Source: Arenibacter arenosicollis
Lineage (GTDB): Bacteria; Bacteroidota; Bacteroidia; Flavobacteriales; Flavobacteriaceae
Length of the DNA: 64,000 nt
Direction of reading: 5' to 3'
Assembly (NCBI RefSeq): GCF_014397245.1
Contig: NZ_JACLHY010000001.1
Coordinates: 186,001-250,000, forward strand
Each line of letters opens with the position of its first letter. The stretch's first letter is position 1. Of this stretch, positions 52,927-58,741 are shown piece after piece. The translations under genes were made by a program, and so were the position numbers. The notes beneath the pieces were generated by a model. The model did no database searches. It had not been told where the DNA came from and was given only the letters and a program-made list of their open reading frames with translations.

Positions 52927-53171
52927 ACTGTTTACCGCTCACTGACCACTGTTTACCCCCCGCTAGCGCGAGCATCATGCTCGTGCTTAAGAATCTAGGT
53001 GCACAAAGCTCCTAGGCTTGGGTTTTCAATCCCTTCCGTCTTCTCCTACTTTGGTCGGAGAATCCACCTTATCCTCCCGCGGAAAACGCGGGACAGGCTT
53101 AACTAAGGGAAGGAACCCCTTATTGTTGACATTGCGGTTTTACTGTTTACCGCTCACTGACCACTGTTTAC
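52927..53171. repeat. repeat cluster: 30-base direct repeats around hairpins delta-2 and gamma-1
   Basis: An exact 30-base direct repeat (ACTGTTTACCGCTCACTGAC then CACTGTTTAC) occurs at 52927-52956 and 53142-53171. Between the copies lie hairpin delta-2 (52956-52986, CGAGCATCATGCTCG core) and gamma-1 (53024-53118). Gamma-1 matches gamma-2 at 57630-57724 over about 95 bases, including the stem CTCCCGCGGAAAACGCGGGA. The 52744-53174 gap holds no gene; the cluster stops 4 bases before the argH stop. Confidence 0.8.
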
Positions 53172-55707: not shown

Positions 55708-56487
55708 TTATAAGGTAATCGTGGTAAATAAGGTAGATTTTGGGTTTAACATATCCAAGTCCCCAATACAAACCTTGCCCACATTTTTATGAAGCGCATG
55801 GAAGCAATTCTCCAATTTTGGAAGCATGCCATCCGCTATAATTTTCTTTTCCAATAATTCCTGGTAGTTCTTAGGTTCCAGGTGTTTTACTACAGTGGTC
55901 TCGTCCGAAACATCCAACAACACCCCTTTCTTTTCAAAGCAATAGTAGAGGGTGGTCTCGTAGTTCCCGCTCATCCCAATTGCCACTTCCGAGGCAATGG
56001 TATCGGCATTGGTGTTCAACAACTGCCCTTCCTTGTTATGGGTGATCGCACAAAACACCGGAACAAATTCCGCCTGCAACAACTTGTCTATGGCCTCTGC
56101 ATTTACTTCCTCTACATCCCCTGCAAACCCGTAATCAATTTCCCGTACCGGTCTTTTCACGGCACGGATGGTATTGCCATCGGCACCGCTCAATCCTATA
56201 GCGTTGGTACCTCTGGCCTGCAATTGTGCCACAATATTCTTGTTTGCCAATCCGCCATAGACCATGGTAATTACTTTTAGTCCCTCTTCATCAGTAATAC
56301 GTCTTCCGCCTACCAATTTGGATTCTATTCCTAATTTTTCAGCGATTTGGGTAGCTAGTTTCCCACCTCCGTGTACCAAAATCTTAGGGCCTGCCATAGC
56401 AGAAAAGGAATCCAGGAATTTGTTGAGCTCCCCTTCATTCTCTATTACGTTCCCTCCTATTTTTATTATAGATAGTTTTTGTTTCAT
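55708..56487 (-). CDS. argB: acetylglutamate kinase (or N-succinylglutamate kinase)
   Basis: This is a 259-residue amino-acid kinase. SIIKIGGNVIE binds phosphate, KILVHGGGKLATQIAEKLG and GGRRITDEEGLKVITMVYGG are the substrate segments, and NTNADTIASEVAIGM binds ATP. It phosphorylates the gamma-carboxyl of an N-acylglutamate. The acyl group is acetyl in most bacteria, but argF' in this operon suggests succinyl. Upstream is the repeat block with the DUF559 gene; argE begins 2 bases after its stop. Confidence 0.93.
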   Translation of the reverse strand: MKQKLSIIKIGGNVIENEGELNKFLDSFSAMAGPKILVHGGGKLATQIAEKLGIESKLVGGRRITDEEGLKVITMVYGGLANKNIVAQLQARGTNAIGLSGADGNTIRAVKRPVREIDYGFAGDVEEVNAEAIDKLLQAEFVPVFCAITHNKEGQLLNTNADTIASEVAIGMSGNYETTLYYCFEKKGVLLDVSDETTVVKHLEPKNYQELLEKKIIADGMLPKLENCFHALHKNVGKVCIGDLDMLNPKSTLFTTITL

Positions 56488-56584: not shown

Positions 56585-56693
56585 AATTTCAAAATTATAT
56601 TTTTAACTTAAACCAAACAGCTCCCCTCTTGGAACGAAGAGGGGAATGAATTTTCTGCTCTTTGGCAGAAAAGAAAGGGGAGTTCGAAATCCC
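56585..56693. repeat. hairpin module alpha, copy 1
   Basis: It starts AATTTCAAAATTATATTTTT, then CAGCTCCCCTCTTGGAACG and AAGAGGGGAATGAATT, and ends GGGGAGTTCGAAATCCC. The 8-base stem CCCCTCTT/AAGAGGGG is followed by an inner hairpin TTTTCTGC/GCAGAAAA (56651-56672). The 56488-56812 gap has no gene besides this and beta-1. Confidence 0.85.
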
Positions 56694-56744
56694 AACTCTT
56701 CTGATTTTATCCCGACACCTCTTTATTCATACATACTGGCTATC

Positions 56745-56810
56745 AGAACCCTCCGTCTTCTCCTCCTATGGTCGGAGAAGCCACCTTCCCTTCACTGAGG
56801 GGAAGTGCTT
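56745..56810. repeat. two-hairpin module beta, copy 1
   Basis: It contains ACCCTCCGTCTTCTCC..GGAGAAG, then CACCTTCCCTTCACTGAGGG and GAAGTG. It touches the DUF559 stop codon. Copies beta-2 and beta-3 lie at 57222 and 57452. Confidence 0.8.
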
Positions 56811-56812
56811 TT

Positions 56813-57178
56813 TTAAGTCTTAAAATTATCTTTTATTTCATTTAATACCGATTCTAAATGGTCAAATACCATTTTGTTTTCAAACCGTATCACCTTGTAA
56901 CCCATAATCATGAAATATCCAGTTCTTTCGTCATCATAGTCAATGGCCTGGGGATTATTGTGGATTTCTCCATCCAACTCCACTATCAACCGCTCTGCTG
57001 CACAATAAAAATCCACCACGTATTTTGAAATACTATGTTGCCTAGTAAATCGTCTGCCCTCAAGTTTACGGGAACTTAATTGCTTCCAAAGAAAGGCTTC
57101 GGCTGGCGTCAGGTTAGACCGGAGCTCATTTCTGAATCCCGAAAGTTCTTTTTTGGTATGTAGCTTATCCTTTGTCAT
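56813..57178 (-). CDS. DUF559 domain protein (Vsr-like endonuclease fold) inside a repeat array
   Basis: This 121-residue protein follows the DUF559 pattern throughout: ELRSNLTPAEAFLWKQL, RRFTRQHSISKYVVDFYCAA, ERLIVELDGEIHNNP, ERTGYFMIMGYKVIRFEN. The family is related to Vsr-type very short patch repair nucleases. Asp56 (VVDFYC) and Glu67-Leu-Asp69 fit a PD-(D/E)xK-like active site. It sits inside the arginine operon between argF' and argB, with hairpin modules on both sides. Its 3' end and the region upstream of its start have matches in the gene-less repeat units. It may act on the hairpins, but that is inference. Confidence 0.85.
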   Translation of the reverse strand: MTKDKLHTKKELSGFRNELRSNLTPAEAFLWKQLSSRKLEGRRFTRQHSISKYVVDFYCAAERLIVELDGEIHNNPQAIDYDDERTGYFMIMGYKVIRFENKMVFDHLESVLNEIKDNFKT

Positions 57179-57221
57179 TCCTTTTTTACAGCTCGCCTAA
57201 CTTTCGTCCTTATTCCAAAAT

Positions 57222-57297
57222 CCGCGCTTTCAAAACCCTCCGTCTTCGCTTGTGGCGAAGCCACCTCCCTTCGTCTGAAGGGAGGTGCCGTGTTAAC
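57222..57297. repeat. two-hairpin module beta, copy 2
   Basis: It begins CCGCGCTTTCAAAACCCTCC. Hairpin one is CTTCGCTTGTGGCGAAG (57244-57260) and hairpin two is CACCTCCCTTC..GAAGGGAGGTG (57262-57287). It runs directly into alpha-2. Confidence 0.85.
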
Positions 57298-57406
57298 ATT
57301 TCAAAATTATATTTATTACTCAAATCAAACAGCTCCCCTCTTGGAACGAAGAGGGGAATGAATTTCCCCGCCTCCAGCGGGGGAAGAAAGGGGAGTTTGA
57401 AATCCC
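57298..57406. repeat. hairpin module alpha, copy 2
   Basis: It matches alpha-1 in order and most bases, but the inner hairpin (57364-57385) is TTCCCCGC..GCGGGGGAA instead of TTTTCTGC..GCAGAAAA. The sequence is different yet still a stem. Confidence 0.85.
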
Positions 57407-57451
57407 TAACATTTGGTCTAAACCCTAACTTTCTCTTTTGTTCCAATATCC

Positions 57452-57560
57452 GCGCTTTCAAAACCCTTCTTCTTCGCTTGGGGCGAAACCACCTCCCTTC
57501 GTCTGAAGGGAGGTGCCATGATTGTATTTCAAAATTATATTTTTGTTCAAATTAAATCGT
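57452..57560. repeat. two-hairpin module beta, copy 3, with truncated alpha
   Basis: It begins CCGCGCTTTCAAAACCCTTC, with hairpins CTTCGCTTGGGGCGAAA and ACCTCCCTTCGTCTGAAGGG. It then continues ATTTCAAAATTATATTTTTG as a cut-off alpha. The preceding linker (57407-57451) matches the DNA just upstream of the DUF559 start. Confidence 0.8.
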
Positions 57561-57629
57561 TCTCCACTGTGCAAAGTCTCCTAGCTTGGCACTATATAAA
57601 ACCATTCGAGCACAACAACCAACCTTTGG

Positions 57630-57724
57630 TTTCAATCCCTTCCGTCTTCTCCTCCTATGGTCGGAGAAGCTACCTTGTCCTCCCGCGGAAAACGCGGGAC
57701 AGGCTTGCTAAGGGAAGGAGCACC
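57630..57724. repeat. multi-hairpin module gamma, copy 2
   Basis: It starts TTTCAATCCCTTCCGTCTTC, has CTCCCGCGGAAAACGCGGGA, and ends AAGGGAAGGAGCACC. The CCCTTCC/GGAAGGG ends pair around two inner hairpins. It matches gamma-1 at 53024-53118. TGTTCACTGCAAAC tandem text follows to the argF' stop. Confidence 0.85.
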
Positions 57725-57796
57725 CTATTTTCGTCATTGTTCACTGACAACTGTTTACTGATTACTGTTCACTGCAAACTGTTCACTGCAAACTGC

Positions 57797-58741
57797 CTAC
57801 CCCTTCAAGCTCTCCAACAACTTCTTCAACACGATTTGTGCGGAATAGGTTCTATTATGAGCCTGTTTTATGGCCAAGGAATTATTTCCATCCAAAACCT
57901 CATCGGCTACTACCACATTTCGCCTTACGGGCAAACAGTGCATAAATTTAGCATTGCCCAACTTTTTATTGGTAATGGTCCAGTTCTTGTCCTGACTTAC
58001 CACCTTACCATAATCCTGGTAACTACTCCAGTTCTTTACATATACAAAATCGGCATCTTCCAGAGCCTTATCCTGATCGTATTCTATTTTGGCACCCTTG
58101 GTCACCTCAGGATTTAAATCGTATCCTTTGGGATGGGTAATAACAAAATCGGCATCCTGCAAATGCATCATTTCCACGAAGGAATTGGCTACAGCATGCG
58201 GCAATGCTTTTGGATGTGGTGCCCAGGACAATACTACTTTTGGTCTTTTCTTGGTATTGTTCTCGGCTAGGGTAATGGCATCTGCCAAAGCCTGCAAAGG
58301 ATGGCCCACGGAACTTTCCATGTTTACTACCGGAATACCGGCATATTTTTTAAAGCCGTTCATGACTACTTCCGCCTCGTCCTGTTCCTTATCGGTCAAG
58401 GAGGCAAAGGCTCTAATGGCCACTATATCGCAATATTGGGCTACTACCTGAGCTGCTTCCTTAATGTGTTCAGAGGTACCTTGGTCCATTACGGTACCGT
58501 CTCCGTACTCCAACGCCCATCCTTCGCTTCCAAAGTTCATCACAATAACTTCCATGCCCAGATTCATGGCCGCTTTTTGCGTGCTTAAACGGGTTCTAAG
58601 GCTGTTATTGAAGAATAATAAACATATGGTCTTTGCCTGTCCCAAGGCTTTGAATTGAAGCGGATTCGCCTTTAATGATCTAGCTTCTTCCACCCACTGC
58701 GGTAGGGAATCGATATCTTTTAAGGATAAATAGTGTTGCAT
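57797..58741 (-). CDS. argF': ornithine-type carbamoyltransferase, probably N-succinylornithine-specific
   Basis: This is a 314-residue member of the aspartate/ornithine carbamoyltransferase family. FNNSLRTRLST near residue 44 binds carbamoyl phosphate, MESSVGHPLQALADAITL gives His-Pro-x-Gln, and MHCLPVRRNVVVADEVLD is the family's closing loop. The operon content and the Bacteroidota setting make N-succinylornithine the likely acceptor, as shown biochemically for the Bacteroides enzyme. Exact selectivity residues cannot be confirmed here. It lies 4 bases after the proB stop. The repeat block begins just past its own stop. Confidence 0.9.
   Translation of the reverse strand: MQHYLSLKDIDSLPQWVEEARSLKANPLQFKALGQAKTICLLFFNNSLRTRLSTQKAAMNLGMEVIVMNFGSEGWALEYGDGTVMDQGTSEHIKEAAQVVAQYCDIVAIRAFASLTDKEQDEAEVVMNGFKKYAGIPVVNMESSVGHPLQALADAITLAENNTKKRPKVVLSWAPHPKALPHAVANSFVEMMHLQDADFVITHPKGYDLNPEVTKGAKIEYDQDKALEDADFVYVKNWSSYQDYGKVVSQDKNWTITNKKLGNAKFMHCLPVRRNVVVADEVLDGNNSLAIKQAHNRTYSAQIVLKKLLESLKG

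Follow-up and report, generated by a model that had tools for sequence, protein, structure and literature searches.

The stretch of Arenibacter arenosicollis DNA analyzed here (64,000 nucleotides, hereafter the window) carries an intact DUF559 gene within an array of hairpin modules, between an argB-like and an argF-like gene. We propose that gene and array probably form one selfish, functional mobile system, comparable either to REP/RAYT systems (repetitive extragenic palindromes, REPs, and REP-associated tyrosine transposases, RAYTs) or to homing endonucleases, and composed of a Vsr-type nuclease and non-autonomous palindromes. The linkage of DUF559 genes to palindromes, the matching of nuclease subfamilies to the main palindrome types, the mirror architecture of the modules, purifying selection on the protein and the existence of both empty and filled sites are directly supported by the data. 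The pairing of DUF559 genes and palindromes is much wider than the window and is found in many unrelated bacteria.

The preliminary description of this locus had reported a 121-residue DUF559 gene flanked by modules termed alpha, beta and gamma, in the order alpha-1, beta-1, gene, beta-2, alpha-2, beta-3, cut alpha and gamma-2. The gene was confirmed by its open reading frame and by a match to the Pfam profile PF04480 (DUF559; E = 1.5e-31; score 108.9 bits, cut-off 20.6), and the module order was borne out by BLAST (Table 1). The NCBIfam profile PRK09767, also for DUF559, was matched at E = 1e-20 with 74 bits, under its cut-off of 218; DUF559 and MTES_1575 were the only Pfam families matching the protein, with no Y1 (HUH) transposase domain among them. 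The label beta-1 held in part: the module starts like a beta (AACCCTCCGTC), but on inspection its inner hairpin is gamma-like. Within the array, the alpha pair 56586-56653/57298-57365 shows 94% identity and the pair 56749-56787/57638-57676 shows 95%, while a 119-nt block (57196-57314/57424-57542) recurs with 87% identity at a spacing of 228 nt.

The modules are characterized by a mirror—an outer sequence that is the mirror image of the 5' arm of the palindrome, namely CTCCCCTT/TTCCCCTC in alpha, CCCTCC/CCTCCC in beta and CCCTTCC/CCTTCCC in gamma. A reading of the outer block as a direct, guide-like copy of the arm was replaced by the mirror copy after both had been counted at palindromes near DUF559 genes, where mirror outnumbered direct copies 111:5 (of 149), 73:14 (of 147) and 13:2 (of 23); all other cases were ties. 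Within a much wider palindrome-plus-mirror family, alpha, beta and gamma represent a single local type. Ten terminator-like stems were counted in the array, where shuffles averaged 1.0; this terminator-like shape is real, and the control genes described below rule out chance or ordinary terminators as a full account. A search of Rfam returned no fitting family for the array, its three matches with E ≤ 1 (RsaJ twice, RefA5) having scores near 20 bits where the gathering scores are 91-100.

Linkage was examined in the own genome, in the family and beyond. The PF04480 search of the A. arenosicollis genome found four places, three of them full genes, and all three lie inside tandem arrays—each of a different repeat, with spacings of 223 nt (C11), 228 nt (the window) and about 170 nt (C22); the fourth place is a weak partial match (26.9 bits) without a motif. 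Across 199 genomes of the same bacterial family, 89 had a PF04480 match, weak partial matches counted. Standalone DUF559 genes fetched with their surroundings made up a family set of 93 different proteins (genus genes among them), which was set against 267 similarly sized control genes drawn from those stretches. Left and right flanks of 400 nt were alike (score ≥30) at 53 of 91 DUF559 genes, two of the 93 having been dropped for want of a flank, as against 4 of 267 controls (Fisher test, 1.5e-33); at three of the 53 (L096, L102, L121) the score seemingly stems, on inspection, from a duplicated start of the neighbouring gene. A perfect hairpin lay within 150 nt on both sides of 22/93 family genes and 0/267 controls, and on either side of 59/93 and 39/267, respectively. 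By palindrome classes A, B and C, which were defined after looking at the data, a motif was present within 300 nt of 73 of the 93 DUF559 genes versus 3 of the 267 controls. At L096, L102 and L121, the DUF559 gene and a class C palindrome are preceded by a cut copy of the following gene's start, which looks as if the insertion had duplicated or restored that start.

Outside the family, a tblastn search with the window protein matched 42 plasmid records. C-rich palindromes were seen by eye near the gene at all 12 loci examined, and 11 of these pass the counting rule; the one that fails is presumably L185, from a cyanobacterium with 7-bp stems. In Deinococcus psychrotolerans, the DUF559 gene sits between paaD and paaZ inside 55-bp inverted ends in which one base differs on inspection, and the Sphingomonas parapaucimobilis gene, with inverted palindromes, separates sufB from sufC. 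Three records of the plasmid collection (L180, L268 and L269; 2.2-4.9 Mb, from Neisseria gonorrhoeae and E. coli) look like mislabelled chromosomes. A second set comprised the best 80 of 513 confirmed relatives, mainly Rhizobiales and other proteobacteria with many related rhizobia among them, and was scored by a palindrome rule fixed after the 12 plasmid loci and before the 80 loci were read. With four loci near contig ends dropped, a palindrome with pyrimidine-rich arms lay within 250 nt of the gene in 68 of 76 usable loci and on both sides in 35—compared with 108 and 14 when 1520 positions were drawn at random within these loci, and with 27 and 0 of 175 control genes of at least 200 residues. 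The possibility raised in the preliminary description, that DUF559 genes elsewhere might not be linked to such modules, is thus contradicted by all three comparisons (own genome 3/3; family 73/93 versus 3/267; second set 68/76 versus 27/175). At L082, a fragment resembling the 3' end of a DUF559 gene precedes the intact gene in the array, likely, on inspection, a remnant of tandem duplication. At four further loci (L176, L187, L071 and L093), annotated or called DUF559 frames run into palindromes, e.g., APHPNPSPEGEG at the end of L187; DUF559 proteins in databases may therefore carry spurious repeat-encoded tails.

Enzyme and repeat also match in type. When raw flank 8-mers were put to a Mantel test, rho was -0.23 against a null standard deviation of 0.04, a real but weak signal, and typed palindromes were therefore used instead. 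On the family protein tree, classes A and B need 2 changes, against a mean of 17.0 and a minimum of 12 in 200 shuffles (left out: 3 of 93 proteins with fewer than 100 residues, 5 with both labels and 30 without a label). Class C (CCCC-NN-CCCTAAAGGG) accompanies 11 of 12 members of a third nuclease subfamily. On the second-set tree, from which 17 of 80 loci with no or several labels were dropped, all labels together need 9 changes, whereas shuffles averaged 24.3 and none of 200 came as low; the individual figures are 3 for ATCTCCCC (20.3 when shuffled), 2 for CCTTCTCCC (10.4) and 5 for CCCTCTCCC (8.6). Kinship of the genomes alone could cluster types on a tree. However, two subfamilies occur together with two palindrome types in single genomes, namely those of Mesorhizobium M1B (L200, L231) and M. 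mediterraneum (L208, L229), and these within-genome pairs speak against kinship as the whole account.

A comparison of empty and filled sites in close relatives, as advised in the preliminary description, revealed a natural series at the site itself. All 18 Arenibacter genomes have an argB orthologue, and the argB-argF interval runs from empty to filled: it measures 82-96 nt in seven genomes, spans 222-1269 nt without a DUF559 gene in six, and contains a DUF559 array in five, A. arenosicollis included, two of these five intervals (L056 and L057) being incomplete as their stretches stop short of argF. On inspection, one gene-less interval (L051) is a tandem run of gamma units and another (L055) is without a clear module. 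Two genomes, L058 and L060, have both outer flanks in common, one with a single gamma and the other with a gene-bearing array. Module-module recombination as the cause of array growth fits this series and does not require the nuclease. The DUF559 protein itself is under purifying selection, because dN/dS (the ratio of nonsynonymous to synonymous substitution rates) is 0.08-0.28 among the five orthologues at this site. Directly after gamma-2 in the window, 14-nt tandem repeats (TGTTCACTGACAAC and variants) occupy 57738-57807, and similar ACTGTTCACTG strings close the argB-argF interval in several congeners. Palindromes of the form CGTCATTGCGAG..GCAATC, a further REP-like family, also occur among the arrays of the genus (L053, L009 and other stretches).

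Twenty large-frame DUF559 loci, expected to be a negative control, carried a motif in 10 cases, and in-frame insertions were found as a result. On inspection, the 20 loci are in-frame insertions or fusions—11 in LeuS, 3 in MetH, 5 before HemD and 1 after HisD—in which translated palindromes serve as linkers; Pfam confirms one locus of each kind (L024, L025, L029 and L028, respectively). LeuS, the product of an essential gene, was found in 195 of 199 family genomes and is adjoined by DUF559 in 15 by coordinates. From 30 LeuS loci fetched, five of which were unmatched by the search expression, 25 loops could be read: 11 have 9 residues, 8 have 13-48 and 6 have 141-162 with DUF559. Filled alleles begin with CCCCATCCTAWCCTTCCCC in 6/6 cases and end with GGGGGYTAGGGGGA in 5/6, whereas neither sequence occurs in the four empty alleles inspected. 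Both the LeuS loop and the argB-argF interval thus exist in empty and filled form, as expected of homing endonucleases. Several of the 13-48-residue inserts look, on inspection, like other palindromic repeats in frame (e.g., VIASEAKQS and RHSELDSES); those of L277-L280, L283, L288 and L296 read as translated palindromic repeats of other kinds, of CGTC type. Several repeat families seem to use the LeuS loop as a landing place.

The LeuS alleles bear on the alternative that DUF559 genes are homing-type selfish genes with a target-site preference, landing in palindromic repeats that another agent has spread. Palindromes do occur without a DUF559 gene, the predicted fold resembles that of a homing endonuclease, and REPs are insertion-sequence targets according to the title of one paper (PMC1525189). 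However, the empty LeuS site is without a palindrome and filled alleles bring palindromes at both ends together with the gene; moreover, the main palindrome types track the nuclease subfamily, even inside one genome. We consider this alternative unlikely.

Table 1. Hairpin modules, genes and in-frame DUF559 loci; positions are those of the window unless a locus handle is given.
Feature	Position or locus	Strand	Description
alpha-1	56586-56693		Palindrome TCCCCTCTTGGAACGAAGAGGGGA (56622-56645), inner hairpin and outer mirror CTCCCCTT (minus strand, about 56671-56684)
beta-1	56747-56806		Hybrid with gamma-type inner hairpin; adjoins 3' end of DUF559 gene
DUF559 gene	56813-57178	minus	121 residues, ATG start; open reading frame call and Pfam profile; Vsr/homing-type PD-(D/E)XK nuclease by predicted fold
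beta-2	57234-57289		AACCCTCCGTC, inner hairpin and palindrome CACCTCCCTTCGTCTGAAGGGAGGTG (57262-57287); upstream of DUF559 gene
alpha-2	57298-57406		84% to alpha-1 over 109 nt (BLAST)
beta-3	57462-57517		Palindrome 57490-57515
cut alpha	57526-57544		First 19 nt of alpha only (BLAST)
gamma-2	57630-57724		CCCTTCCGTC, inner hairpin and interrupted palindrome
gamma-1	53024-53114		Solo module without gene; 92% match (BLAST)
argB-like amino-acid kinase gene	55708-56487	minus	Left border of site
argF-like carbamoyltransferase gene	57797-58741	minus	Right border of site
LeuS in-frame DUF559 loci	L020-L022, L024, L026, L027, L030, L032, L034, L037, L041		On inspection
MetH in-frame DUF559 loci	L025, L044, L049		On inspection
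HisD in-frame DUF559 locus	L028		On inspection
HemD in-frame DUF559 loci	L023, L029, L033, L039, L040		On inspection

The palindromes are also dispersed in many copies. A class A or B pattern was found in 36 of the 199 family genomes, the same patterns read backward (as a control) occurring in 2/199 and 0/199. Standalone DUF559 genes, hand-picked in 49 genomes among the matches listed (frame ≤215 residues, E < 1e-20), were present in 27 of the 36 genomes with an A/B pattern versus 22 of the 163 without (Fisher test, 8e-13). One genome (G033) contains 129 class B matches on both strands. Of the 20 genomes or records from which selected loci came, 13 contained ATCTCCCC palindromes, with a maximum of 300 per genome, and 16 contained CCTTCTCC palindromes, with a maximum of 91; the backward control patterns gave 0 except for 1 in one genome. 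Many of the palindrome places listed are inverted pairs about 88 nt apart, and in this the ATCTCCCC type beside rhizobial DUF559 genes looks like RIME-type rhizobial repeats.

The window modules share the architecture of published intrastrand triplex motifs (TM) of E. coli, that is, a palindrome plus an outer mirror. Holder (2015, PMC4666352) describes TM-ECO, earlier named PIT, with 23 copies in E. coli MG1655, triplex formation in vitro with no in vivo support, and greater variation of these sites between strains, and reports having found neither an associated mobility gene, transposase or integrase remnants near the motifs included, nor a functional class of neighbours. Palindromes of the TM/PIT kind have been reported in more than 260 bacterial genomes. 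The TM-ECO consensus (CCCTCNCCCN3-6GGGNGAGGGN3GGGNGAGGG) differs, on inspection, from the window arms TTCCCCTC, CCTCCC and CCTTCCC; it is present beside E. coli ycjD, itself a DUF559 gene matched in 3365 of 5426 genomes. A 36-mer beside ycjD is letter-identical to TM nos. 9, 16, 19 and 22 of Holder 2015 (PMC4666352), of which no. 9, judged by its position, would be the ycjD-side copy. The 121-nt stretch with this motif occurs in 5100 of the 5426 E. coli genomes, at a median of 4 places.

From a structural perspective, an AlphaFold2 model of the window protein (38 sequences; mean predicted local distance difference test score 85.3, predicted template modeling score 0.78) points to a probable DNA-cutting enzyme with a PD-(D/E)XK/Vsr-like fold. 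The best match in the PDB was 3hrl (NGO0050, a DUF559 protein that a sequence search likewise found; E = 2.6e-7), with further matches to the homing endonuclease I-Bth0305I (E = 4.6e-4) and, more weakly, to Vsr (E = 0.064), and residues D56, E67, D69 and H73 are invariant in the 38 DUF559 sequences. The claim of the preliminary description—a RAYT-like system with a different nuclease fold—is supported by linkage, by type matching and by a predicted structure that is Vsr/homing-endonuclease-like and not HUH. A 2005 paper already placed YcjD among PD-(D/E)XK nucleases, its profile having found Vsr (PMC1189080). In Caulobacter, loss of the methylase ScmA leads the DUF559 protein VsrA to trigger the SOS response (PMC12907096); this lends indirect in vivo support to the notion that the DUF559 family acts on DNA, the authors themselves favouring mismatch repair.

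The SOS response also favours an explanation by regulation or toxicity control: a nuclease serving in repair or defence would be kept at low expression by the flanking hairpins, acting as terminators or RNA elements. This explanation draws further on the excess of terminator-like stems and on a likeness to type III toxin-antitoxin loci, given the tandem repeats next to a nuclease. Against it stand modules on both sides of the gene and dispersed far from it, in tens to hundreds of copies in several genomes, their in-frame translation in LeuS and MetH, and a PADLOC search for defence systems whose sole match was weak and local (DpdF, E = 0.0057). We hold this explanation to be very improbable.

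The remaining alternative takes DUF559 for a passenger that rides or accumulates in arrays, the modules being moved by RAYT-type (Y1_Tnp) or other transposases. The preliminary description had noted that no transposase of a known type is nearby. The genome does hold two RAYT-type Y1_Tnp genes, outside the window (L006:917-2251 and L005:1372-2074; C23 and C1, respectively), and, on inspection, class A modules have a CGTC-like tag and a CCA-like tail. One Y1_Tnp gene lies inside a tandem array of another hairpin (units of about 160 nt, CCTGCAAGGTTTCCAAAACCTTGTAGG) and the other between inverted copies of GCGCGAGCGTCACGCTCGTGC; at neither locus was there a significant alpha or beta match (best E = 0.024) or a class A, B or C motif, and RAYT was rejected as the mover of the modules on this ground. 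Furthermore, control genes are seldom linked to palindromes, the matching of types is unexpected for a passenger, and Di Nocera 2013 (PMC3733652) reports no transposase beside CGTC REPs. A passenger role is decidedly unlikely in our view. The DUF559 system, without a Y1 domain, is not a RAYT; it is RAYT-like in anatomy, dispersal and type matching.

We picture the proposed mobile system as follows. The modules would be the cognate DNA of the DUF559 nuclease, and the 5' arm, recurring as the outer mirror, would allow one strand to fold into a hairpin with a third strand alongside—an intrastrand triplex. A full element would consist of the gene and the modules at its ends, with solo or tandem gene-less modules as non-autonomous copies. 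The nuclease might recognize the folded module while it is single-stranded, during replication or repair, and cut nearby, whereupon repair or recombination would copy the module or the whole element into the break; modules would thereby spread, and tandem arrays grow and shrink. We suggest only tentatively that it is the folded, triplex-like strand which is recognized.

Several points weigh against this proposal. Cutting by DUF559 and the movement of modules are what we infer, and target duplication is not established. Within 300 nt of 20 of the 93 family genes there is no class A, B or C motif (13 of these genes belong to the IIPY subfamily, which has 34), the classes themselves having been defined post hoc, and 8 of 76 second-set genes are without a palindrome. 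On the second-set tree, the minor label CCYTCCCC is unclustered (5 changes versus a shuffled mean of 4.9), and two ATCTCCCC rows, L246 and L256, fall outside the main ATCTCCCC clade. The preliminary description had regarded modules widespread in genomes without DUF559 as damaging. This is partly the case: 9 of the 36 pattern-bearing family genomes are without a standalone DUF559 gene, and the ycjD-side repeat occurs without ycjD in at least 1735 E. coli genomes, because 5100 genomes carry the repeat as against 3365 with the gene. The idea that short units are deleted gene copies was dropped, being significant at one end of one locus only: the C11 spacer scored 21 against the 3' end of the gene (p = 0.002; 5' end, p = 0.84). 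The window spacer gave p = 0.09 and 0.85 against the DUF559 gene ends, and a deleted-copy origin is not claimed for the window.

Overall, the DUF559 enzyme is a good candidate for the agent spreading a common bacterial repeat family. A more far-reaching version, possible though in our estimation somewhat doubtful, is that DUF559 proteins are the dedicated mobility enzymes of pan-bacterial triplex-capable palindromes (TM/PIT, RIME-like, CCTTCTCC and flavobacterial types), that they recognize the folded strand, and that the whole element can also enter essential genes while keeping their reading frame, leucyl-tRNA synthetase or methionine synthase thereby acquiring a selfish nuclease as an internal domain. 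If DUF559 were the missing enzyme of the TM/PIT group, an open question would become testable in E. coli K-12 through one gene, ycjD. REP-type systems would gain a second enzyme fold and triplex-forming DNA a partner protein; there would be a reason for the strain-to-strain variation of such sites, a way for selfish nucleases to become in-frame parts of essential proteins, and a suggested role for a protein family matched by PF04480 in 89 of 199 genomes (weak partial matches counted). Among the matches listed in a literature search, with subscription literature mostly outside it, no paper linked DUF559 to intrastrand triplex motifs or REP-type repeats.

The DUF559 elements can be compared with several known systems. 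Rickettsia palindromic elements are palindromic selfish DNA found in frame in protein genes and are not known to carry a nuclease gene, whereas the in-frame inserts described here include the nuclease. With I-Bth0305I and Vsr, the DUF559 system has in common the predicted fold and a selfish insertion with empty and filled alleles; it differs in that there is no intron or intein and palindromic modules travel with the gene. TM-ECO/PIT likewise combines a palindrome with a mirror third strand, in intergenic positions and inverted pairs, but the window modules differ from it in arm sequence and in an additional hairpin that separates the palindrome from its mirror, and a DUF559 gene is linked here where no mobility gene has been reported for TM. 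Class A modules resemble CGTC REPs in the CGTC-like tag before the hairpin, the CCA-like tail and the lack of a known transposase; membership was rejected, since their stems are shorter and variable and fail the definition of Di Nocera 2013 (PMC3733652), by which CGTC REP stems have 8-9 bp and begin with A-T pairs. In organization, REP/RAYT (TnpA-REP) systems and REPINs offer a parallel: an enzyme that processes DNA is encoded amid palindromes that are also dispersed as gene-less copies and inverted pairs, enzyme and repeat types are matched, and repeats can remain where the enzyme is absent. In contrast to these systems, the DUF559 enzyme has a Vsr/homing-type fold in place of Y1 HUH, class A modules carry CCGTC, on inspection, in place of the GTAG tag, the modules possess an outer mirror repeat, and DUF559 elements also reside in frame inside proteins.

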